Of a DNA stretch of 64,000 nt, positions 12,400 through 30,437 are shown one piece after another. This DNA comes from Pseudomonas anguilliseptica. GTDB lineage: Bacteria; Pseudomonadota; Gammaproteobacteria; Pseudomonadales; Pseudomonadaceae. Below the pieces are notes generated by a model. It saw only the letters and a list, made by a program, of their open reading frames with translations, did not search any database and was not told the DNA's origin. How positions within the stretch are numbered: position 1 is the stretch's first letter; each line of letters begins with the position of its first letter. A program made the position numbers and the translations under genes. The stretch lies in the NCBI RefSeq assembly GCF_021375795.1, contig NZ_JAEIOI010000001.1:930001-994000 (forward strand), read 5' to 3'.

Positions 12400-12425
12400 A
12401 GGCCATCCCCGTGCGGGGATGGCCT
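12400..12425. terminator. Hairpin between the DUF853 gene and the 74-aa gene
   Basis: A perfect 11-bp stem (12400-12410 with 12415-12425, AGGCCATCCCC) closes a GTGC loop. There is no T-run after it, so termination is likely but not certain. The flanking genes converge here. Confidence 0.6.
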
Positions 12426-16657: not shown

Positions 16658-17782
16658 TTAGCCGCGGTAATAACGCTGCGGTACAAACGGGGTCTTGGCC
16701 ACTTTCATCGCCACGCGTTTGCCGCGCACCATGGCCCATACTTCGGTATCCAGGGCGATATGGCTGTTCTGCAGATAGCCCATGGCCACCGGGGCAGCCA
16801 GGGTTGGGCCGAAGCCACCGCTGCACACGCTGCCGATCACATTGCCGTCGGCATCGACGATTTCCGCGCCTTCACGCACCGGCACACGTTCCTGCGGCAG
16901 CAGGCCGACGCGCTTGCTGGCAATGCCTTCTTGTTGCTGGGCGAAGATGCGCTCGGCACCGGGGAAGCCGCCCGCACGGGCGCCATCGGCGCGGCGTGGT
17001 TTGGACATGGCCCACAGCAAGCTGGCCTCGATCGGCGTGGTGCTGGTGCTCATGTCGTGGCCGTACAGGCACAGGCCTGCTTCCAGGCGCAGCGAGTCAC
17101 GCGCGCCAAGGCCGATAGCGGCTACTTCCGGTTCAGCCAGCAGGCTGCGCGCCAGGGTTTCACAGTGTTCGGCCGGCACCGAAATCTCGAAACCGTCCTC
17201 GCCGGTGTAGCCGGAGCGGCTGACGTAGCAATCGACGCCGAGCAGACGCACCGGGGCGAATTGCATAAAAGTCATCTTCGCCACTTCCGGGGCCAGGCGG
17301 GCCAGCACGTCGACTGCTTTAGGGCCTTGCAGCGCCAACAGTGCGCGTGCTTCGAACAGGCTTTCGATCTCACACTGGCTGCCGATGTGCTTGTGAAGGT
17401 GGGCCAGGTCCTGCTCCTTGCAGGCGGCGTTGACCACCAGGAACAGCGTGTCGTTACCCAGGTTAGCGACCATCAGGTCGTCGAGGATGCCGCCGTTCTC
17501 ATCGGTGAACATGGCGTAGCGCTGCATGCCCACGGGCAGGTCGATGATGTCCACCGGTACCAGGGTTTCCAGGGCCTTGGCGGCATTCGCGCCGCGCAGG
17601 ACGATCTGGCCCATGTGCGAGACATCGAACAGGCCTGCAGCGTCGCGGGTGTGCAGGTGTTCCTTCATCACGCCCAGCGGATATTGCACTGGCATGTCGT
17701 AGCCGGCGAACGGCACCATGCGTGCGCCCAGTTCAAGGTGCAGGGCGTGTAGTGGGGTTTTCGCCAGGGTTTCAGTGGTCAT
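16658..17782 (-). CDS. gcvT: Aminomethyltransferase, T-protein of glycine cleavage
   Basis: T-protein takes the aminomethyl group from lipoyl-H-protein and gives 5,10-methylene-THF and ammonia. The protein has 374 aa from the ATG at 17782, preceded by TGGAGAA. The N-terminus LHALHLELGARMVPFAGYDMPVQY and the LFDVSHMGQI motif identify it. A folate-binding core with GYTGEDGFEI and GLGARDSLRLEAGLCLYGHD follows, and then the C-terminal barrel. It is the last gene of the gcvH-gcvP-glyA-sdaA-gcvT operon; the order matches the second gcv set of P. aeruginosa. A palindromic element separates it from sdaA. Confidence 0.97.
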   Translation of the reverse strand: MTTETLAKTPLHALHLELGARMVPFAGYDMPVQYPLGVMKEHLHTRDAAGLFDVSHMGQIVLRGANAAKALETLVPVDIIDLPVGMQRYAMFTDENGGILDDLMVANLGNDTLFLVVNAACKEQDLAHLHKHIGSQCEIESLFEARALLALQGPKAVDVLARLAPEVAKMTFMQFAPVRLLGVDCYVSRSGYTGEDGFEISVPAEHCETLARSLLAEPEVAAIGLGARDSLRLEAGLCLYGHDMSTSTTPIEASLLWAMSKPRRADGARAGGFPGAERIFAQQQEGIASKRVGLLPQERVPVREGAEIVDADGNVIGSVCSGGFGPTLAAPVAMGYLQNSHIALDTEVWAMVRGKRVAMKVAKTPFVPQRYYRG

Positions 17783-17793
17783 GCGGTTCTCCA

Positions 17794-17848
17794 GTAGGGT
17801 GCGCCATGCGCACCGTTGCAAGGGTTTGGTGCGCACGGCGCACCCTAC
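17794..17848. repeat. Palindromic intergenic repeat between sdaA and gcvT
   Basis: Two 21-base arms (17794-17814 and 17828-17848) match as reverse complements at 20 of 21 positions around a 13-base loop. The outer core is GTAGGGTGCGC. It is REP-like and lies inside the operon, where it may act as an RNA processing or stabilising hairpin. Its outer part overlaps the gcvT ribosome binding site region. Confidence 0.8.
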
Positions 17849-17851
17849 AAA

Positions 17852-19228
17852 TCAGCATTCGACAATATTGACGGCCAGGCCGCCGCGGGCGGTTTCCTTG
17901 TACTTGTTGTTCATATCGGCACCGGTCTGGCGCATGGTGCGGATGACTTTATCCAGCGAGACGAAGTGCTGACCGTCGCCGCGCAGGGCCATGCGGGCGG
18001 CGTTGATCGCCTTGACCGAGCCCATGGCGTTGCGTTCGATGCAGGGCACCTGGACCAGGCCGCCGATGGGGTCACAGGTCAGGCCAAGGTTGTGTTCCAT
18101 TCCGATCTCGGCGGCGTTTTCCACCTGGTTGACGCTGCCGCCCAGCACCTCGCACAAGGCGCCGGCGGCCATCGAACAGGCCACGCCGACCTCGCCCTGG
18201 CAGCCGACTTCGGCACCGGAGATCGAGGCGTTCTCTTTATAGAGGATGCCGATGGCGGCAGCGGTGAGCAGAAAGCGCACTACGCCGTCGTCGTTGGATC
18301 CCGGGATAAAGCGGCTGTAGTAATGCAGCACGGCGGGCACGATACCGGCCGCGCCATTGGTGGGCGCGGTGACCACGCGCCCGCCTGTGGCGTTTTCCTC
18401 GTTCACCGCCAGGGCGTAGAGGTTGACCCAATCGAGCACGCTCAGGGCGTCGCGCAGGCTGGCCTCCGGGTGTTTGCACAGCTGGCGGTGTAGGGCGGCG
18501 GCACGGCGTTTGACCTTGAGCCCGCCGGGCATGATGCCTTCATTGCGGCAACCGGCTTCGACGCAATCCTGCATCACTTGCCAGATATGCAGCAGGCGCG
18601 CGCGGGTTTCCGCTTCCGAGCGCCAGGCGGCCTCGTTGGCCAGCATCACCTGGCTGATCGACAGATTGTGTTCGGCGCAGTGCGCCAGCAACTGTTTGCC
18701 GGTGGTAAAGGGATACGGCAGGGCAGTGGTGTCTTCGACGATACGGTCGGCCCCGGCGGCCTGTTCATCGACGACAAAACCGCCGCCCACCGAGTAGTAC
18801 TCGCGCGCGCGGATCTGCAAACCGGCGGCGTCGAAGGCGCGGAAGATCATGCCGTTGGGGTGAAAGGGCAGCGGCTTGCGAATCATCGCCAGGTGCTGCT
18901 TTTCGACAAAGCGAATGGTTTTCTCGCCGAGCAGTTTGAGCTCGCCACTGCTGCGAATCGCTGCCAGGCGGGCGTCAACGGTATTGGTGTCGACCGTGTC
19001 CGGCTGTTCGCCTTCCAGGCCGAGCAGCACGGCTTTGTCGCTGCCATGGCCCTTGCCAGTCGCGCCGAGGGAGCCGTACAGCTCGACCTTGAGGCTGTCG
19101 GTAGTGGCCAATAGATCATCGCGGCGCAGGCCTTCGGCAAAGCGCACGGCGGCGCGCATCGGGCCCACCGTGTGCGAGCTGGACGGGCCGATGCCGATCT
19201 TGAATAGGTCAAAAACGCTAAGTGACAT
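17852..19228 (-). CDS. sdaA: L-serine ammonia-lyase (iron-sulfur type)
   Basis: The enzyme deaminates L-serine to pyruvate and ammonia. The protein has 458 aa, a single-chain type with a beta domain first ([24 protein letters not shown]) and the alpha domain after about residue 170. Cysteines C343, C385 and C396 (in [14 protein letters not shown] and VPCIERN) fit the three ligands of the 4Fe-4S cluster. With SHMT upstream it converts glycine-derived serine into pyruvate. The gene follows glyA by about 90 bases on the same strand. Confidence 0.97.
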
Positions 19229-19317: not shown

Positions 19318-20571
19318 TTAGTCAGCGTAGACCGGGAAGCTGGCGCATAGGTCGGCGACCTGACCACGGACGCGTTCAATTACCGCCGGGTTTTCCAGGT
19401 CATCGAGGATGTCGCAGATCCAGCCGGCCAGGGTGCGGCACTCGCCCTGCTTGAAGCCGCGGGTGGTGACGGCCGGGGTGCCGATACGGATGCCCGAGGT
19501 GACAAACGGCGACTGCGGATCGTTCGGCACGGCGTTCTTGTTCACCGTGATATGCGCCGCGCCCAGGGCTGCATCGGCAGCTTTGCCGGTGAGGCCCTGT
19601 CTGATCAGGCTGACCAGCATCAGGTGGTTGTCGGTGCCGCCGGAGACCACGTTATAGCCGCGCGCAACGAACACTTCGGCCATGGCCTGGGCGTTGTTGA
19701 TCACCTGCTGCTGGTAAGTCTTGAAGCTTGGCTCCAGGGCTTCCTTGAAGCACACGGCCTTGGCTGCGATCACATGCATCAGCGGGCCGCCCTGGGCGCC
19801 GGGAAATACGGCGGAGTTGAGCTTTTTCTCGATCTCTTCATTGGCCTTGGCCAGGATCAAACCGCCACGCGGGCCGCGCAGAGTCTTGTGGGTGGTGGTG
19901 GTGACCACATCGGCGAAGGGCACCGGGTTGGGGTACAGGCCGGCGGCCACCAAGCCGGCGACGTGGGCCATGTCGACAAACAGCAGCGCACCGACTTTAT
20001 CGGCGATGGCGCGGAAGCGGGCGAAGTCCAGGGTGCGCGAATAGGCGCTGAAACCGGCGACGATCATTTTCGGCTTGTGCTCGATAGCCAGGCGCTCGAC
20101 CTCGGCGTAATCGATCAGGCCCTGCTCGTCGATGCCGTATTGCACCGCGTTGTACAGCTTGCCGGAGGACGAAACCTTGGCGCCGTGGGTCAGGTGGCCG
20201 CCGTGGGCCAGACTCATGCCGAGGATGGTATCGCCAGCATTGAGCAAGGCCAGGTACACCGCGCTGTTGGCTGAAGAGCCGGAGTGCGGCTGCACGTTGG
20301 CGTAGTCGGCACCGAACAACTGTTTGGCGCGTTCGATGGCCAGCGCCTCGACCTTGTCGACATGCTCGCAGCCGCCGTAATAGCGCTTGCCCGGATAGCC
20401 TTCGGCGTACTTGTTGGTCAGGCCGCTGCCCTGAGCCTGCATCACGCGCTGGCTGCAATAGTTTTCCGAGGCGATCAGCTCGATATGGTCTTCCTGGCGC
20501 TGCTCTTCGGCGTTGATCGCGGCGAGCAGGGCGTCATCGTAGCCTTGCAGTTGGTCGTGCTTGCTGAACAT
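19318..20571 (-). CDS. glyA: Serine hydroxymethyltransferase
   Basis: The enzyme interconverts glycine plus methylene-THF with serine, using PLP. The protein has 417 aa, the normal length. The PLP lysine is K229 in [17 protein letters not shown], and the [12 protein letters not shown]-like motif ([18 protein letters not shown], residues 55-72) and DMAHVAGL are intact. Placement between gcvP and sdaA makes it the catabolic copy; pseudomonads usually carry another glyA elsewhere for biosynthesis. A repeat-rich 190-base gap separates it from gcvP. Confidence 0.98.
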
Positions 20572-20644: not shown

Positions 20645-20760
20645 GAAGCTGAACGTTGAACCATCCCCTCTCCCTACTGGGGAGAGGGCTAGGGAGAGGG
20701 GTTGCCTAACAACCGCATTACCCTCTCCCCCGGCCCCTCTCCCAGAGGGAGAGGGGAGGT
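20645..20760. repeat. Pair of CCCTCTCCC-type inverted repeats between gcvP and glyA
   Basis: Two imperfect palindromes lie head to tail. The first, about 20664-20701, contains CCCCTCTCCCTACTGGGGAG. The second, about 20721-20758, contains CCCTCTCCC and GGGAGAGGGG arms. They resemble a widespread proteobacterial intergenic repeat. They interrupt the operon without any gene between gcvP and glyA. Confidence 0.75.
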
Positions 20761-20763
20761 TCT

Positions 20764-23616
<2,853 letters not shown>

Positions 23617-23625
23617 TGCAATCTC

Positions 23626-24009
23626 TCAGGCGTCAGCATTGGCGTTGAGCAGGCGCTCGTAGGCGGCCTGGTCGAGCAGGTCGGCTACCGCGCTGGCATT
23701 GGCCGGACGGAAACGGAAGAACCAACCCTTGCCCAGGGGATCTTCGTTGACCAGCTCAGGGCTGGATTCTAGCTCGCCATTGACCTCTACCACCTCACCG
23801 TCCAGCGGCATGGCGATATTGCTTGCGGCTTTTACCGATTCCAGCACCGCCACTTCGTCACCCTCGGCATAGCTCTGCACTTCCGGCAGCTGAACGAATA
23901 CCACGTCACCCAGGGCTTCCTGGGCATAGGCGGTGATGCCCACGGTAACCAGACCATCGGCATCCTGACGCAGCCATTCGTGCTCGACGGTAAAACGCAA
24001 TTCGCTCAT
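23626..24009 (-). CDS. gcvH: Glycine cleavage H-protein
   Basis: H-protein carries the lipoyl arm shuttling between P-, T- and L-proteins. The protein has 127 aa. The lipoylated lysine is K60 in AVLESVKAASN, and the fold signature VTVGITAYAQEALGDVVFVQLP is complete. It is the first gene of the operon. Upstream lies a sigma-54 promoter at 24102-24117 and a perfect palindrome at 24179-24200, so expression probably needs an enhancer-binding protein, as GcsR does in P. aeruginosa. Confidence 0.98.
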   Translation of the reverse strand: MSELRFTVEHEWLRQDADGLVTVGITAYAQEALGDVVFVQLPEVQSYAEGDEVAVLESVKAASNIAMPLDGEVVEVNGELESSPELVNEDPLGKGWFFRFRPANASAVADLLDQAAYERLLNANADA

Positions 24010-24101
24010 GTGTACTCCTCAAGGGTGGTGACTCGCCCTTTCTGCTGGGGGCGATGTGCTGGACGCGCGTGCTGGGCACGCGCTGAAGGTGAAAAGACCA
24101 T

Positions 24102-24117
24102 AGCAAGGGTGGTGCCA
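24102..24117 (-). promoter_or_regulatory. Sigma-54 (-24/-12) promoter of the gcv operon
   Basis: On the minus strand the sequence is TGGCACCACCCTTGCT. It matches the consensus TGGCACG-N4-TTGC(A/T), with the invariant GG and GC exactly ten bases apart. It points toward gcvH, about 90 bases before the start codon. Confidence 0.85.
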
Positions 24118-24178
24118 TTGTTATTTTTATCAATAAAAACAATAGCTTAGTGTGTTTTTAGGGCTTTATTTGTTGTTG

Positions 24179-24200
24179 TCCGTATCGATTTCGATACGGA
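24179..24200. promoter_or_regulatory. Perfect 10-2-10 palindrome, candidate enhancer site
   Basis: The arms TCCGTATCGA and TCGATACGGA flank TT. The centre is roughly 100 bases upstream of the expected gcvH transcription start, the usual distance for a sigma-54 activator site. The identity of the binding protein is not shown by the sequence. Confidence 0.6.
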
Positions 24201-24279
24201 TTGGCGCGGTTTATCCAGAGTGCGCAGCGCAAAGGCTCAGGTGTCGCGGGCTGAATGATTTGTGTCGCTTTCATTACGC

Positions 24280-24297
24280 TGTATTCAAATCAATACA
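24280..24297. promoter_or_regulatory. TGTATT-N6-AATACA inverted repeat
   Basis: Six-base perfect arms flank a six-base spacer. The geometry equals that of TyrR/PhhR boxes (TGTAAA-N6-TTTACA), though the inner bases differ. It could serve either divergent gene. Confidence 0.4.
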
Positions 24298-24576
24298 TAT
24301 GCGGCGAGCTTGGTAATGGCATCGGTGCCGAGGCGGTTAGGCACCTGGATTACTCGGCTGATGGCGGTCAATCCCTCTGCTCAATCGCCCGTGCCATTCA
24401 TCCGCCCTATAAAGCGCTATTGAACGGGTCGATGGGCCGGCTGTAGAGCGGCTTTCCAGAGGTGTATTCACTCTTTCGGCTGACAGGGCAAATACCTCTT
24501 TCGGGCGCTTATCCCGCTCAAGGCGGCTGAGTAGCGTGGGGCCTCAACACGAAACCCCGCTTTCCAGGAGAGCCGC

Positions 24577-26334
24577 ATGAGAACAACAACAAGACATGCC
24601 ATCTTCCAGCCCAGCGTTTTGGCGATTGCCATTGCTGTCGGCTGTGTCGCGCCTGTCCAGGCTATTACATTCAATATCGGTGAGGTCGAAGCGCAGTTCG
24701 ACTCATCGCTTTCTGTGGGGGCCAGTTGGAGCGTGCGCGGTGCCGATCCTGACTTTATCGGCACGCGCAACGGCGGCAAGGCGTCCTCTCAGACCAACGA
24801 TGACGGGCGCTTGAACTTCAAGAAAGGTGAGACCTTTTCGAAGATCTTCAAAGGTATCCACGACCTTGAGTTGAAGTACGGCGATACCGGCGTGTTCATC
24901 CGCGGCAAGTACTGGTACGACTTCGAGACCAAGGACGAAAGCCGCCTGCTGTATGACATCGATGACCGCAACCGCAAGACCGCGGCTCAGGCCGCCGGTG
25001 CGGAAATTCTCGATGCCTTCATCTACCACAACTACAACCTCGGCAGCCTGCCGGGCAGTGTGCGGGTTGGTAAGCAAGTGGTCAGCTGGGGCGAGAGCAC
25101 CTTTATCGGCAACTCGATCAACTCGATCAACCCGGTGGACGCCGCCGCCTTTCGCCGCCCCGGTGCGGAGGTCAAGGAGGGGCTGATCCCGGTCAATATG
25201 TTCTATGTCTCCCAGAGCCTGACTGACAGCCTGTCCATGGAGGCCTTCTACCAGCTGGAATGGGATCAGACGGTCGTCGACAACTGCGGCACCTTCTTTG
25301 CCCCCAGCGATACCGCCGCCGATGGCTGTAATGACCGCCTGGTGGTAGCCGGTGCCGATGTGGCCCCAGGCCAGTCGAACAACAGCGGCGCGCCGGGCAA
25401 CCCTGTCTTTATTCCCCGGGCCGGTGACCGTGATGCTCGCGACAGCGGCCAGTACGGTGTGGCGCTGCGCTGGTTTGCCGAGCAGCTCAACAACAGCGAG
25501 TTTGGCCTGTACGCCTTGAACTATCACAGCCGCTCGCCCAGCGGCAGCTTTGTAATCACCGCCGACGGAACGCCGCAGACGGCCCGCTATTTCCTCGAGT
25601 ATCCCGAAGATATCCGACTGTATGGCCTGAGCATGCAGACCACGGTGGGGTCGACTTCGGTAGCCGGTGAAATCAGCTACCGGCCGAATATGCCCCTCAG
25701 CATCAACTCAACCGATATGACCCTGGGCGCGCTGGGTGTCGGGGTGTCTCCGGTCTTTACCAGCGGCCATGCACAGCTGGCGCTGGGCGGCGATATCAAG
25801 GGCTATGTGCGCAAACCCGTGACCCAGGCCCAGGTCAGCGCCACCCATTTCTTCGACCGGGTGCTCGGCGCCAGCCGTCTGACCCTGGTGGGGGAGGTGG
25901 GTTACAACCATATCAGCGGCATCAGCAATGACCTGGGCGCCCTGCGCTTTGGCCGCGATCCGGTCTATGGCCTGGGTGAAGTCGCCGCACCGGCAGGGAC
26001 GTGCGAGCAGGCGTTGAATCGTGACAACCCCGATCTATGCAACAACGATGGCTTCTTTACCAGCAGCTCCTGGGGCTATCGCGTGCGGGCCATCGCCGAT
26101 TACAGCAACGTGTTTGCCGGCATCAATCTGTCGCCGAGCATTGCCTGGTCCCATGACGTGGATGGCTATGGGCCGAACTTCAACGAAGGCAGCAAGGCCA
26201 TCAGCCTGGCGCTGAACGCCGACTACCAGAATACCTACACCGCCAGCCTCAGTTACACCGACTTCTTTGGTGGTGATTACAACACTAACGTCGACCGTGA
26301 CTTTGTTGCCCTGAGCTTCGGTGTGAACTTCTGA
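24577..26334 (+). CDS. DUF1302 family outer-membrane protein
   Basis: The protein has 585 aa from the ATG at 24577, preceded by CAGGAGAG. A signal peptide (to about residue 29, VAPVQA) is followed by a beta-rich chain of DUF1302 type. Typical features are ITFNIGEVEAQFDSSLSVGASW near the start, a VRVGKQVVSWGESTFIGNSIN motif, and a C-terminal strand ending in ...FVALSFGVNF with a terminal Phe, as in outer-membrane barrels. DUF1302 genes usually pair with DUF1329, as here (next gene 29 bases on). They are associated with transport or export of hydrophobic compounds, but the substrate is unknown. Confidence 0.9.
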   Translation: MRTTTRHAIFQPSVLAIAIAVGCVAPVQAITFNIGEVEAQFDSSLSVGASWSVRGADPDFIGTRNGGKASSQTNDDGRLNFKKGETFSKIFKGIHDLELKYGDTGVFIRGKYWYDFETKDESRLLYDIDDRNRKTAAQAAGAEILDAFIYHNYNLGSLPGSVRVGKQVVSWGESTFIGNSINSINPVDAAAFRRPGAEVKEGLIPVNMFYVSQSLTDSLSMEAFYQLEWDQTVVDNCGTFFAPSDTAADGCNDRLVVAGADVAPGQSNNSGAPGNPVFIPRAGDRDARDSGQYGVALRWFAEQLNNSEFGLYALNYHSRSPSGSFVITADGTPQTARYFLEYPEDIRLYGLSMQTTVGSTSVAGEISYRPNMPLSINSTDMTLGALGVGVSPVFTSGHAQLALGGDIKGYVRKPVTQAQVSATHFFDRVLGASRLTLVGEVGYNHISGISNDLGALRFGRDPVYGLGEVAAPAGTCEQALNRDNPDLCNNDGFFTSSSWGYRVRAIADYSNVFAGINLSPSIAWSHDVDGYGPNFNEGSKAISLALNADYQNTYTASLSYTDFFGGDYNTNVDRDFVALSFGVNF

Positions 26335-26363
26335 TCAACGCAGTGCAAAAGGATCCGTACACC

Positions 26364-27734
26364 ATGAAAAACACAAGAATCCTGCAAGCGGGTGCGCTGC
26401 TGCTGACGTTGTTAGCCAGCAGCGTGATGGCCGCGGTCTCCGAACAAGAAGCGGCTCAGCTGGGTGCCAGCCTGACGCCGCTGGGTGGGGAAATGGCCGG
26501 CAATGCCGATGGCAGTATCCCGGCCTGGGATGGCGGTCTGTCTACCAGTGCCGCGGCTGTCGATGGCAAGGGCTTTCTCGCTGACCCCTTTGCCGGTGAA
26601 CAAGCGCTTTTCACGATTACCGCAGCCAATGCCGAGCAGTACAAAGACAAGCTGTCAGCCGGTCAGCTGGCCATGTTCAAGCGCTACCCGGAGAGTTACA
26701 AGATTCCGGTTTACCCCTCGCATCGAACCACCGCTGTGCCGGCCGCGATTGCCGAAGCGGCCAAGCTCAGCGCAGTCAATACCACGCCCGTAGACGGTGG
26801 TAACGGCCTGCAGAACTTCAATGCCAGCCGTTACTACGCCTTCCCCATTCCCAAGACGGGCGTTGAGGTGATCTGGAACCACATCACCCGTTATCGTGGC
26901 GGTAACACCCGCCGGGTGGTGACTCAGGCAACGCCGCAGACCAATGGCTCCTACAGCCTGGTCAAGTTCGAGGATGAAGTGGCCTTCCCGGCGGATATGC
27001 CCGACCTTGATCCGGCCAAGGGCAGCAATGTCCTGCTGTATTTCAAGCAGCGGGTGACTGCACCGTCGCGCCTGGCCGGTAACGTGCTGCTGGTTCACGA
27101 GACCATCGATCAGGTCAAGGAACCGCGTCTGGCGTGGATCTACAACGCCGGTCAGCGTCGTGTGCGGCGTGCGCCGCAGGTGGCATACGATGGGCCGGGT
27201 ACGGCCGCTGATGGCATGCGTACGGCCGATAACTTCGACATGTTCTCCGGGGCGCCTGATCGCTACGACTGGCAACTGGTCGGCAAGAAGGAGATGTACA
27301 TCCCCTACAACAGCTACAAGCTGGATTCGCCGTCACTGAAGTACGACGACGTGCTCAAAGCCGGGCATATTAATCAGGACCTGACACGTTACGAGCTGCA
27401 CCGGGTCTGGGAAGTGGTGGCCACGCTGAAGAGCGGTGAGCGGCATATCTATGCCAAGCGCCACATGTACGTCGACGAGGACAGCTGGCAGATCGCGCTG
27501 GTTGATCATTACGACGGCCGTGGTCAGCTTTGGCGTGTTGCCGAAGGTCATGCGCAGCACTACTACAACCATCAGGTGCCGGGCTACACCCTGGAAGCGC
27601 TGTATGACCTGGTGGCGGGTCGCTATTTGGCTCTGGGGATGAAGAACGAAGAAAAATCGGCTTATAACTTCGGCTTCAAGGCGACCGCTGCCGACTACAC
27701 GCCAGCCGCGCTGCGCAGCTCCGGCGTTCGTTAG
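26364..27734 (+). CDS. DUF1329 family periplasmic protein
   Basis: The protein has 456 aa from the ATG at 26364; a GTG seven codons upstream is less likely. A signal peptide ends near SSVMA-AVS. DUF1329 hallmarks are LGGEMAGNADGSIPAWDGG near the N-terminus and a YAFPIPKTGVEVIWNHITRYRGG segment. The family has a LolA/LolB-like fold, suggesting carriage of a lipidic molecule across the periplasm. It is cotranscribed with the DUF1302 gene. Many clusters add an MMPL/RND exporter; none is seen nearby. Confidence 0.9.
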   Translation: MKNTRILQAGALLLTLLASSVMAAVSEQEAAQLGASLTPLGGEMAGNADGSIPAWDGGLSTSAAAVDGKGFLADPFAGEQALFTITAANAEQYKDKLSAGQLAMFKRYPESYKIPVYPSHRTTAVPAAIAEAAKLSAVNTTPVDGGNGLQNFNASRYYAFPIPKTGVEVIWNHITRYRGGNTRRVVTQATPQTNGSYSLVKFEDEVAFPADMPDLDPAKGSNVLLYFKQRVTAPSRLAGNVLLVHETIDQVKEPRLAWIYNAGQRRVRRAPQVAYDGPGTAADGMRTADNFDMFSGAPDRYDWQLVGKKEMYIPYNSYKLDSPSLKYDDVLKAGHINQDLTRYELHRVWEVVATLKSGERHIYAKRHMYVDEDSWQIALVDHYDGRGQLWRVAEGHAQHYYNHQVPGYTLEALYDLVAGRYLALGMKNEEKSAYNFGFKATAADYTPAALRSSGVR

Positions 27735-27766
27735 GCCAATAACCAGCACGTGTGACTCCGTAATTG

Positions 27767-27790
27767 GGCGGCCTGCGGGCCGCCTTTTTT
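27767..27790 (+). terminator. Intrinsic terminator after DUF1302-DUF1329
   Basis: A 7-bp GC stem (27767-27773 GGCGGCC with 27778-27784) closes a 4-base loop and is followed by T6. It separates the pair from the LuxR regulator gene. Confidence 0.9.
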
Positions 27791-27890
27791 ATCGCCCGCC
27801 ATCACCTCTCGTGATGGAACTGTGAGCTATAGGCATTGAGGGTTAGCCTGCAATGATCCGGTTCCTGTAAAAACAATAAATCGAGCCGTC

Positions 27891-30437
27891 ATGCACGCAT
27901 TAGCGCCTTTCCCGCAAAGCGCCGCAGCGTCGTCCTGCGGCAGCGTACAGCGTCCACCGCCTGGACATATCTTCCGGCTATCTGTGCAACAGCGGCTGCT
28001 GGCGCACGACTGTCGCCTGCGTTTACTGGTTGGCCCGGCCGGCTTTGGTAAGACAGTGTTGTTGGCCGACTGCGCCCGTGAGTGTCCGGCCAATTACCGC
28101 CTGCTCTGGCTGACTTGCGCCGGTCAGGGCCTGTGTGCCGAGCAGCTTGCTCAGCAGTTGGGCAAGCTGCTCGACTACCCCGCAGGCCTCAGCAGTAGCG
28201 AGCTGCTGGCGGCCCTGGCGCAGGAGTCGCGGCAGTTGTGGATCATGCTCAATGACTACCCGGCGCACCCGAATCACGCCCTCGATGACTTTCTCAATCA
28301 ACTGCTGATGGTCACCCCACCGGGCATCTGCTGGTGGCTGGGCAGCCGCCGGCGGCCAGCGTGCAACCTTTCGCGTCTGTTGCTGGAAGGCGAGCTGCTC
28401 GAACTGGGGGCCAGCGAACTGGCCTTCAGCGCAGCGGAGGTGTTGGCCTGGCTGCAGCAACTGGACCCAAGCCGCAGCGCCTGGGCGCACGACCTGCATG
28501 AGTTGACCCAGGGCTGGCCGGCGGCCTTGCGCCTGCACCTGTTGGCGGCTCAGGCCGAACCGACTGCGCTGGGCGCGTTGCAGGAAGGTGAGCATGATCA
28601 GTTGCTCGCCGAATATGTCGAACGCGAAGTACTGCAAGGGTTGCCGGATGAGCTGTTGCAGATGCTCCAGCAACTGGCCCAGCTGCCGCGCTTCAATCCA
28701 GCGCTGTGTGATCACCTGTTTGGTGTAGGCGAAGGCGCGCAGTGGTTACGTGCGCTGATTGAGCGCGGCGTGTTTATCCAGGAACTGGAAGCGGCCAAGG
28801 GTTGGTATGGGCTGTTCCCGCCGCTGGCTCGGTTGCTCCAGCGACAGGCGCACCACCTGCCCAGCAGCGCTCTGCATGTGCATGCCAGCCAGTGGTTTGC
28901 CGGCCATGGTGATATTCCTGCGGCGGTGGAGCACGCCTTGCTGGCCGGGCAACCGGAGGTGGCGGGGAGTTTTCTTGAGCGTTTTACCGAGGAGCAGGTG
29001 CTGCAAGGCCAGGACCTGGCGCTGATCCTGCGTTGGCGCAGCGAGCTGCCGGAGAGCCTGTTATGCAGCACACCGCGGCTGATTCTGCTCAACGCCTGGG
29101 TGTTGTTGCTGGTCGGCCGTTTGGACGAGGCGCAGAGCTGCATCAACGAATTGGCGCGGTTTCAACCGCGCAGCGATGGTGCGCGAACCCGGGAGCTGTT
29201 CGCTCACTGGCAAGCCATTCAGGGCATCATCGCCTATGGCCGTGTCTGTGCCGTGGATGCTCGCACTCACCTGCATGATGCCTTGCAGGGGTTGCCGCAA
29301 AGCGCGTGGTCGCAGGCGTTGCTGTGTCGTTCGGCGTTGACTCTGGTGGCAATTGGCGAAGGTCAACTGGAGGCGGCACAGAAGCTCAGTTTTGAAGCCT
29401 TGAAGCAGGCACGTCTGCATGGCAATCCGGTATTTGAAGCCCTGCTGGAACTGGACCATGCCCTGCTGCTGGAGGCGCGAGGTGAATTTGCTCGCGCTGA
29501 AGCCTTGCTGCAGCGGGTGTTGAGCGCAACTGCGCCGACGGCCTTGCACAACACGCCGGTACTGGCGCGGCTTGAGCTGCGCCTGGGGCGTCTGCAACTG
29601 CGCCAGGGCCGTGTGGATGAAGCCCAGGCAGCGTTGCAGTGCGGGCTTGAGCATGCGCTCGCTTGCGGCGATCCGGCGGCGTTTCATGGTTACCTCGGCC
29701 TGGCCGAATTGGCGATGGGGCAGGACGATATGGCCGCCGCCTTTGCGCAACTGGGGCAGGCCGAACGGCAGATGCAGCGTCAGCGCGTCAATGAAACCCT
29801 GTACCGCGGCACCCTGTTGTTGGCCAGCTGTCATCTGTGGATTGCCCAGGGTCACTATGCGCGGGCGCGTATCGCCGCGACGCGGGTATTGGGTTATGAG
29901 CAGCGGGTTAAAGCGGTGCTGCCAACGCCGAACTTTCCCGAGCTGATCCCACGGTTCAAGGCACTCCTGCTGCAACTCGATCGTCTGCAGGGCGAGGATG
30001 GGGATGTGCGCGAGCCTCTACGGCAGTTGCTGGAACAGGTGGCAGATCAGGGCCGGCAGGCGTTGGTCAGCGACTTGTGGCTGAACTATGCCGACGCCTG
30101 CGCCGCCTGTGACGACAAGGTGGGCGCCGAACAGGCTCGCCAGACCGGCCAGGCGCTGCAGCGGCGTTTGGGGTATCTGCGCCCGTGGTTTTGCGTCGCC
30201 AGCCAAGGTGACGGCGCGCCGAATGCTGCATCTGTCACCAGCGCCAATGCGCTGAGCAGTCGCGAACTGGCGGTGCTTGGCTTGATCGCACAGGGGCTGT
30301 CCAATCAGGAAGTGGCCGAGCAGCTGTTTATTTCCCTGCACACGGTGAAGACCCACGCACGACGGATCAACGGCAAACTGGGTGTGGCGCGGCGTACTCA
30401 GGCGGTGGCCAAGGCTAAGGCGTTGGGCTTTTTCTAA
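27891..30437 (+). CDS. MalT-like LuxR family transcriptional regulator with ATPase domain
   Basis: The protein has 848 aa. A P-loop LLVGPAGFGKT (GPAGFGKT at 48-55) starts a STAND/MalT-type ATPase module. Winged-helix and helical TPR-like repeats follow across the middle (about residues 330-740). A LuxR HTH ends the protein (LSSRELAVLGLIAQGLSNQEVAEQLFISLHTVKTHARRINGKL, described here by its position at about 787-829). Such regulators oligomerise on ligand and ATP binding. The position right after DUF1302-DUF1329 suggests it controls them. The ligand is unknown. Confidence 0.9.
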   Translation: MHALAPFPQSAAASSCGSVQRPPPGHIFRLSVQQRLLAHDCRLRLLVGPAGFGKTVLLADCARECPANYRLLWLTCAGQGLCAEQLAQQLGKLLDYPAGLSSSELLAALAQESRQLWIMLNDYPAHPNHALDDFLNQLLMVTPPGICWWLGSRRRPACNLSRLLLEGELLELGASELAFSAAEVLAWLQQLDPSRSAWAHDLHELTQGWPAALRLHLLAAQAEPTALGALQEGEHDQLLAEYVEREVLQGLPDELLQMLQQLAQLPRFNPALCDHLFGVGEGAQWLRALIERGVFIQELEAAKGWYGLFPPLARLLQRQAHHLPSSALHVHASQWFAGHGDIPAAVEHALLAGQPEVAGSFLERFTEEQVLQGQDLALILRWRSELPESLLCSTPRLILLNAWVLLLVGRLDEAQSCINELARFQPRSDGARTRELFAHWQAIQGIIAYGRVCAVDARTHLHDALQGLPQSAWSQALLCRSALTLVAIGEGQLEAAQKLSFEALKQARLHGNPVFEALLELDHALLLEARGEFARAEALLQRVLSATAPTALHNTPVLARLELRLGRLQLRQGRVDEAQAALQCGLEHALACGDPAAFHGYLGLAELAMGQDDMAAAFAQLGQAERQMQRQRVNETLYRGTLLLASCHLWIAQGHYARARIAATRVLGYEQRVKAVLPTPNFPELIPRFKALLLQLDRLQGEDGDVREPLRQLLEQVADQGRQALVSDLWLNYADACAACDDKVGAEQARQTGQALQRRLGYLRPWFCVASQGDGAPNAASVTSANALSSRELAVLGLIAQGLSNQEVAEQLFISLHTVKTHARRINGKLGVARRTQAVAKAKALGFF

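Follow-up and report, generated by a model that had tools for sequence, protein, structure and literature searches.

In Pseudomonas aeruginosa, the gcs2 operon is activated by GcsR and RpoN through three 18-bp sites with the consensus TGTAACG-N4-CGTTCCG, as described in PMC4894688. According to that paper, all GcsR orthologues found there adjoin a glycine cluster, and the TyrR box is quoted as TGTAAA-N6-TTTACA. The TyrR box and PhhR have the protein family, the dyad layout and a GTA/TAC core in common with the GcsR system, whereas spacer, inner bases and effector differ. In Escherichia coli, the gcv operon is under GcvA/GcvR control (PMC4894688), which, like GcsR, governs glycine cleavage genes. 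Unlike GcsR, however, GcvA is a LysR-type activator with a separate repressor, GcvR. We know of no sigma-54 activator in the control of E. coli gcv.

A gcs2-type operon and its probable sigma-54 promoter

We analysed a 64-kb stretch of the Pseudomonas anguilliseptica genome (the window). The operon order gcvH-gcvP-glyA-sdaA-gcvT was confirmed, extending down to 16658 (Table 1); it matches the five-gene gcs2 operon of PAO1 gene for gene (PMC4894688). As in PAO1 according to that paper, an RpoN element lies close upstream of gcvH, three 18-bp inverted-repeat sites precede it (here in diverged form), and the genome encodes GcsR, a TyrR-like enhancer-binding protein.

Because a sigma-54 element, diverged repeats, an IHF-like site, RpoN and a GcsR orthologue are all present, we read positions 24102-24297, with high confidence, as the predicted promoter, with its enhancer, of a glycine-catabolic operon of the gcs2 type, to which GcsR would bind and which would respond to glycine. 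The mechanism itself is known; the form of the sites and the unlinked gcsR are variants of it, and the helix/box covariation described below is the part that specialists would want to test. The glycine switch, known from experiments, is thereby extended to a lineage whose sites and gene order depart from the published rule, and a search by the published consensus would miss this promoter because its sites have diverged.

Table 1. Features of the glycine operon and its upstream region (window positions)
Feature	Position	Strand	Basis or remark
gcvT, start codon uncertain	16658..17836	-	NCBIfam GcvT above cut-off; Pfam GCV_T
sdaA, serine dehydratase	17852..19228	-	Pfam SDH_alpha and SDH_beta
glyA, serine hydroxymethyltransferase	19318..20571	-	Pfam SHMT
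gcvP	20764..23616	-	Pfam GDC-P
gcvH (H protein, gcvH2 type), first operon gene	23626..24009	-	Pfam GCV_H; NCBIfam gcvH above cut-off
Sigma-54 -24/-12 element TGGCACCACCCTTGCT	24102..24117	-	sole exact TGGCAC-N5-TTGCW match in 64 kb
IHF-like site TAAGCTATTGTTT	24137..24149	-	one mismatch to consensus YAANNNNYTGATW
Predicted GcsR site 1, proximal, CGTATCG-AAAT-CGATACG	24181..24198	.	core of the palindrome at 24179-24200
Predicted GcsR site 2, weak, CGTAATGAAAGCGACACA on minus strand	24261..24278	.	19-bp register with site 3
Predicted GcsR site 3, TGTATTGATTTGAATACA on minus strand	24280..24297	.	array score; 19-bp pair

The near-consensus -24/-12 element originally proposed to face gcvH was confirmed; it lies 108 bp before the ATG. 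When one mismatch to TGGCAC-N5-TTGCW was allowed, the window held 5 matches against 4.25 expected from shuffles, so that one-mismatch elements occur here at chance level; the element of this promoter is nevertheless convincing because it is conserved across promoters. Under a two-step pattern, a -24/-12 element was present in 152 of 154 promoters, the promoters of genomes G359 and G408 yielding none. A stricter pattern, TGGCACG-N4-TTGC, had zero matches genome-wide, the seventh base of the window element being C. A sigma-70 promoter was also sought, and none was recognised by consensus within 23990-24620.

In the spacer that runs from the sigma-54 element to the proximal box, the best match to YAANNNNYTGATW, which we take to be the IHF consensus, was exact in 72 of 132 promoters, off by one base in 45 and by at least two in 15. 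Its position was constant, 32 bp before the TGG, in 98 of the 132, and shuffled spacers gave an exact match in 23 of 2640 cases. In the mechanism that we propose, sigma-54 RNA polymerase would sit at 24102-24117 and GcsR dimers would occupy the three 18-bp sites, the palindrome being the proximal one. IHF would probably bend the DNA at 24137-24149, bringing GcsR to the polymerase, and with glycine present GcsR would open the promoter through ATP hydrolysis.

Two features of the surroundings were recorded. Within the operon, in the gcvP/glyA gap, a palindrome CCCCTCTCCC-AGA-GGGAGAGGGG at 20734-20756 resembles a repetitive extragenic element. On the other side, a plus-strand cluster (24577-30437) diverges from the glycine operon; it encodes DUF1302 and DUF1329 proteins together with a large LuxR regulator that has MalT-like repeats.

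The palindrome as the probable proximal GcsR site

The perfect 10-2-10 palindrome predicted upstream of gcvH was found as an exact repeat, TCCGTATCGA-TT-TCGATACGGA, at 24179-24200. Perfect 10-2-10 palindromes number 2 in the window, against 0.2 per simulated window (n = 40); the other one, at 12402-12423, is GC-rich. The original prediction had also put the palindrome about 100 bases upstream, which was loose: the gap between palindrome and sigma-54 element measures 61 bases, and the palindrome's centre lies ~73 bp from the TGG. A value of ~100 bases would be valid only when counted from a putative start site ~12 bp past the -12 GC.

Three 18-bp inverted repeats of the 7-4-7 type, starting at 24181, 24261 (weak) and 24280, were recognised upstream of gcvH. 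This array scored 30 of 36, and the best among 300 simulated intergenic regions scored 22, under a score set to the window's own arms and thus favouring the window. The published TGTAACG-N4-CGTTCCG was not matched: the proximal site, a homologous but diverged form, differs from this consensus at 4 of 14 arm positions, with GTATCG arms in place of the GTAACG and CGTTCC arms given for PAO1 in PMC4894688. The earlier statement that GcsR repeats are not visible was wrong, as they are present in diverged form.

Comparison across genomes revealed that, in the initial set of 77 gcvH2 promoters from the same genus, every one has a GcsR-type box upstream of the sigma-54 element; 75 have it in the first scored stretch, and in G031 and G136, which have less upstream sequence, it was found under a later rule at 82 bp from the TGG. 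On this ground, GcsR would very probably bind the palindrome as the site nearest to the promoter. The box starts 79-85 bp before the TGG in 117 of 129 promoters and mostly at 68-69 in genus g6. In 66 of the 77 promoters, a pair of strong sites is spaced by exactly 19 bp, and other spacings of 15-40 bp occur in none, although no spacing had been imposed; the distal pair of the window, 24261-24278 with 24280-24297, is a weaker form of this arrangement.

The boxes form a graded series, from CGTATCGAAATCGATACG in the window through CGTATCGATTTCGCTACA, TGTAGCGATTTCGCTACA and CGTAGCGATATCGTTCCA to CGTAACGATAACGTTCCG; the arms grade from CGTATCG-N4-CGATACG in the window to CGTAACG-N4-CGTTCCG, near the published P. 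aeruginosa form. This series of orthologous promoters, all with the box in the same place, supports the suggestion that the activator site may have diverged, and together with the GcsR gene it favours the originally predicted sigma-54/GcsR-type glycine promoter as the probable reading of these sequences.

It is conceivable, but very improbable, that the palindrome is the operator of a different regulator, either one of the DUF1302 gene or a gcvH repressor, and that GcsR acts elsewhere. Near-perfect dyads are generally common among dimeric repressors, the palindrome is more symmetric than the published GcsR consensus, and it sits in the intergenic region that gcvH shares with the divergent DUF1302 gene at 24577. 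Against this, the box is kept in 26 of 26 own-lineage promoters read, while only 15 of these 26 genomes have the DUF1302 gene at a distance of up to 1.5 kb from gcvH, the other 11 lacking it there; since this linkage is not conserved, the DUF1302 gene was rejected as the target. The palindrome also shares its position with the GcsR-type boxes of other clades, and intermediates exist.

A regulon of such a regulator would moreover need other close copies of the palindrome, and the genome lacks any, so that a regulon operator was rejected. With up to 3 mismatches, the 20-base core recurred at 2 other places in the 4.04-Mb genome, each with 3 mismatches, and a reversed control at 5. A degenerate box with one mismatch occurred at 7 places, 2 of them at the window promoter, against 11 for the reversed control, and thus gives no sign of a second genomic target.

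GcsR, its relatives and its linkage to gcvH2

The genome encodes RpoN and yields 16 sigma-54 activator matches, 13 of them strong. Two of the strong ones are TyrR-like: PhhR, encoded beside phhA, and the GcsR orthologue at G000:C27:80783-82318, which supplies the GcsR/TyrR-like activator gene that had been named as a check. This protein contains PAS, Sigma54_activat, AAA_lid_14 and HTH_50 domains; an N-terminal ACT domain scored 21.2 bits, short of the cut-off of 27. Aligned from end to end with the TyrR model (residues 1-510), the protein scored 458.7 bits, below the equivalog cut-off of 576, which fits GcsR because GcsR is a relative of TyrR. Among the matches listed, same-genus GcsR proteins are 80-95% identical to it.

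That another sigma-54 activator drives the operon, for instance PhhR as the second TyrR relative, has a minimal probability in our assessment. The 13 strong activators, the presence of the PhhR gene and the mutual similarity of TyrR-family boxes would allow it. However, the PhhR helix VSHTTIANKL, in which Asn takes the place of GcsR residue 501, and the single good site in the vicinity of phhA, CGTAACCATTTCTTTACG of the GTAA/TTAC type, differ from the GcsR helix and the palindrome, respectively. By sequence, the best solved relative of the GcsR HTH is the TyrR homologue 1G2H, presumably that of Haemophilus influenzae, which likewise has Asn at the residue-501 position.

The joint distribution of GcsR and gcvH2 also argues against another activator. 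Among the matches listed, a GcvH match was present in 199 of 199 same-genus genomes, 191 being of gcvH2 type by best E-values, and the identical 8 of the 199 lacked both an H protein of gcvH2 type and a match at GcsR level, so that the absence of the one tracks that of the other; in G123 and G198, gcvH2 was present and the GcsR match, among those listed, was partial. In many genomes of other clades, again among the matches listed, only a few kb separate gcsR and gcvH. GcsR control of the operon remains the preferred reading. The pairing is not strict: when 30 more genomes of the family were examined for gcvH, four (G211, G214, G239 and G250) had GcsR without gcvH2. The GcsR relatives of these four, at loci L203, L195, L194 and L199, are 77-82% identical.

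Whereas the orthologues found in PMC4894688 all lie beside the cluster, gcsR in the window genome is on another contig. It lies deep inside contig C27 and the operon deep inside C1, so the two are not adjacent, and no glycine-cleavage gene was seen among the neighbours of gcsR that were read. In other own-lineage genomes with both genes located, gcsR and gcvH are likewise not adjacent, the closest pair among the matches listed being 13 kb apart (G180), though some own-lineage pairs fall on separate draft contigs. In the named relative P. aestuarii SA3-5, whose gcvH is 94% identical, no gcvH occurs within 10.5 kb around gcsR. A further scan of genome contigs covered 27 of 80 loci.

Covariation of the recognition helix with the box

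The recognition helix of GcsR reads TSHSAIAM in the window genome, TSHTAIAH in most others read and TSHTAIAK in clades with CGTTCC-type arms. To relate helix and box, we assembled 154 promoter/regulator pairs and used 151; the three dropped were G359, G408 and, from G422, the promoter of the paralogue. An earlier table of 136 promoters had left out seven: G123 (broken GcsR read), G359 and G408 (no sigma-54 match), and G012, G008, G113 and G199, which lack a GTA anchor and are included in the 154-pair set. The criteria for choosing sites were symmetry and the arm bases 2-4, with either T or G accepted at base 3; distance decided ties. The genomes are not a random sample, one batch consisting mostly of genomes with gcsR and gcvH close together, and later rows were partly aimed at Ser-helix clades and paralogues after the pattern was known.

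T at base 5 of both proximal arms occurred in 33 of 51 Ser-type pairs against 0 of 99 Thr-type pairs (one gap). Of the 28 K/Q-type pairs, 26 have an arm whose base 3 is G, against 4 of 122 others. When the GcsR columns were scanned, arm base 3 was associated most strongly with residue 501 (phi 0.87, runner-up 0.69), and T/T at arm base 5 with residue 497 (0.74), followed by residue 501 (0.73) and then by the next column (0.68). For G at arm base 5 in any arm, residues 59 and 112 were best and residue 501 came third, which makes this part of the code weaker.

These associations suggest that residues 497 and 501 constitute a small natural specificity code for the inner arm bases. Regulator and enhancer would have been adjusted jointly on several occasions, and duplicate modules in one cell would be insulated by their different codes; on balance, we consider this probable. 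His at 501 corresponds mostly to GTAGCG, K/Q to a GGA arm, and Asn often to GTAA, as in TyrR boxes; Ser497 with I/T/V corresponds mostly to GTATCG or GTATTG, and with Met the boxes are more mixed. Exceptions occur: GGA arms are present in G317, G020 and G184 (His) and in G423 (Met), and absent in G205 and G358 (Gln). The activator-binding sites have apparently drifted from the published form in step with the reading helix of GcsR, and the own-lineage boxes would have moved to GTAT(C/T)G arms along with the changed helix. No description of a GcsR helix/box code or of paralogue insulation was found among open-licence papers.

The association could instead reflect shared ancestry and row selection only, with no coupled change, which we regard as rather unlikely while giving it appreciable weight. 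Ser occurs without T/T arms in the g6 clade, in G093 and in several own-lineage members, and joint parsimony coincides only in part (Ser 6 changes, T/T 8, joint 12; K/Q 7, arm-3 G 8, joint 11), indicating that the coupling is partial. Independent pairs numbered 2 to 5 per test, so that p 0.05 is out of reach. Yet nearly all of those with differing boxes changed in the same direction: for Ser with T/T, on average 1.7 of 3 went the same way and 0.0 the other; for K/Q with arm-3 G, 2.6 of 3 and 0.0, with one opposite pair in 3 of 200 pairings; and for I/T/V with T/T, 1.0 of 2 and 0.2.

Traits simulated with 8 random changes, on a tree from which the helix had been left out, speak against ancestry alone, reaching the observed values in 0 of 3000 runs (501, arm base 3), 6 of 3000 (497, T/T) and 95 of 3000 (501, T/T), figures that are uncorrected for column scanning or row choice. 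In addition, two residues of one helix lead the column scan for two of the three traits, and paralogues within single genomes combine different helices with correspondingly different boxes. The system offers a natural experiment on the joint change of an enhancer-binding protein and its enhancers, with paralogous modules in a single cell as built-in controls, although any causal role of the helix residues would be a step beyond the covariation itself.

An additional GcsR-gcvH module, distinct in both helix type and box type, is present in several Pseudomonas genomes (loci L336-L352). We inspected 12 genomes with a TSHSAIAI-type second GcsR; in 11 of them the piece read included the linked gcvH. 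The boxes of these second modules read TGTATTG-N4-CAATAC(A/G) in 9 of the 11, the remaining two having a left arm TGTCTTG and a right arm CACTACA, respectively, whereas the main modules of the same 11 genomes combine Thr/His helices with (C/T)GTAGCG-N4-CGCTACA in 8 and CGTATCG-N4-CGCTACA in 3. In five genomes of two other genera, the second module has (T/C)GGAGCG-N4-CG(C/T)TCCA and Thr/Gln at 497/501; in three of these (G322, G225 and G326), the main module has Thr/His and (C/T)GTAGCG-N4-CGCTACA. Differing codes within one cell are what insulation of the modules would require.

P. arsenicoxydans E3 has a TSHSAIAI GcsR beside gcvH, with the box CGTATTG-N4-CAATACA. Between gcsR and gcvH of P. 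arsenicoxydans, upstream of the enhancer sites, lies a large REP-like inverted repeat (L261:6003-6456).
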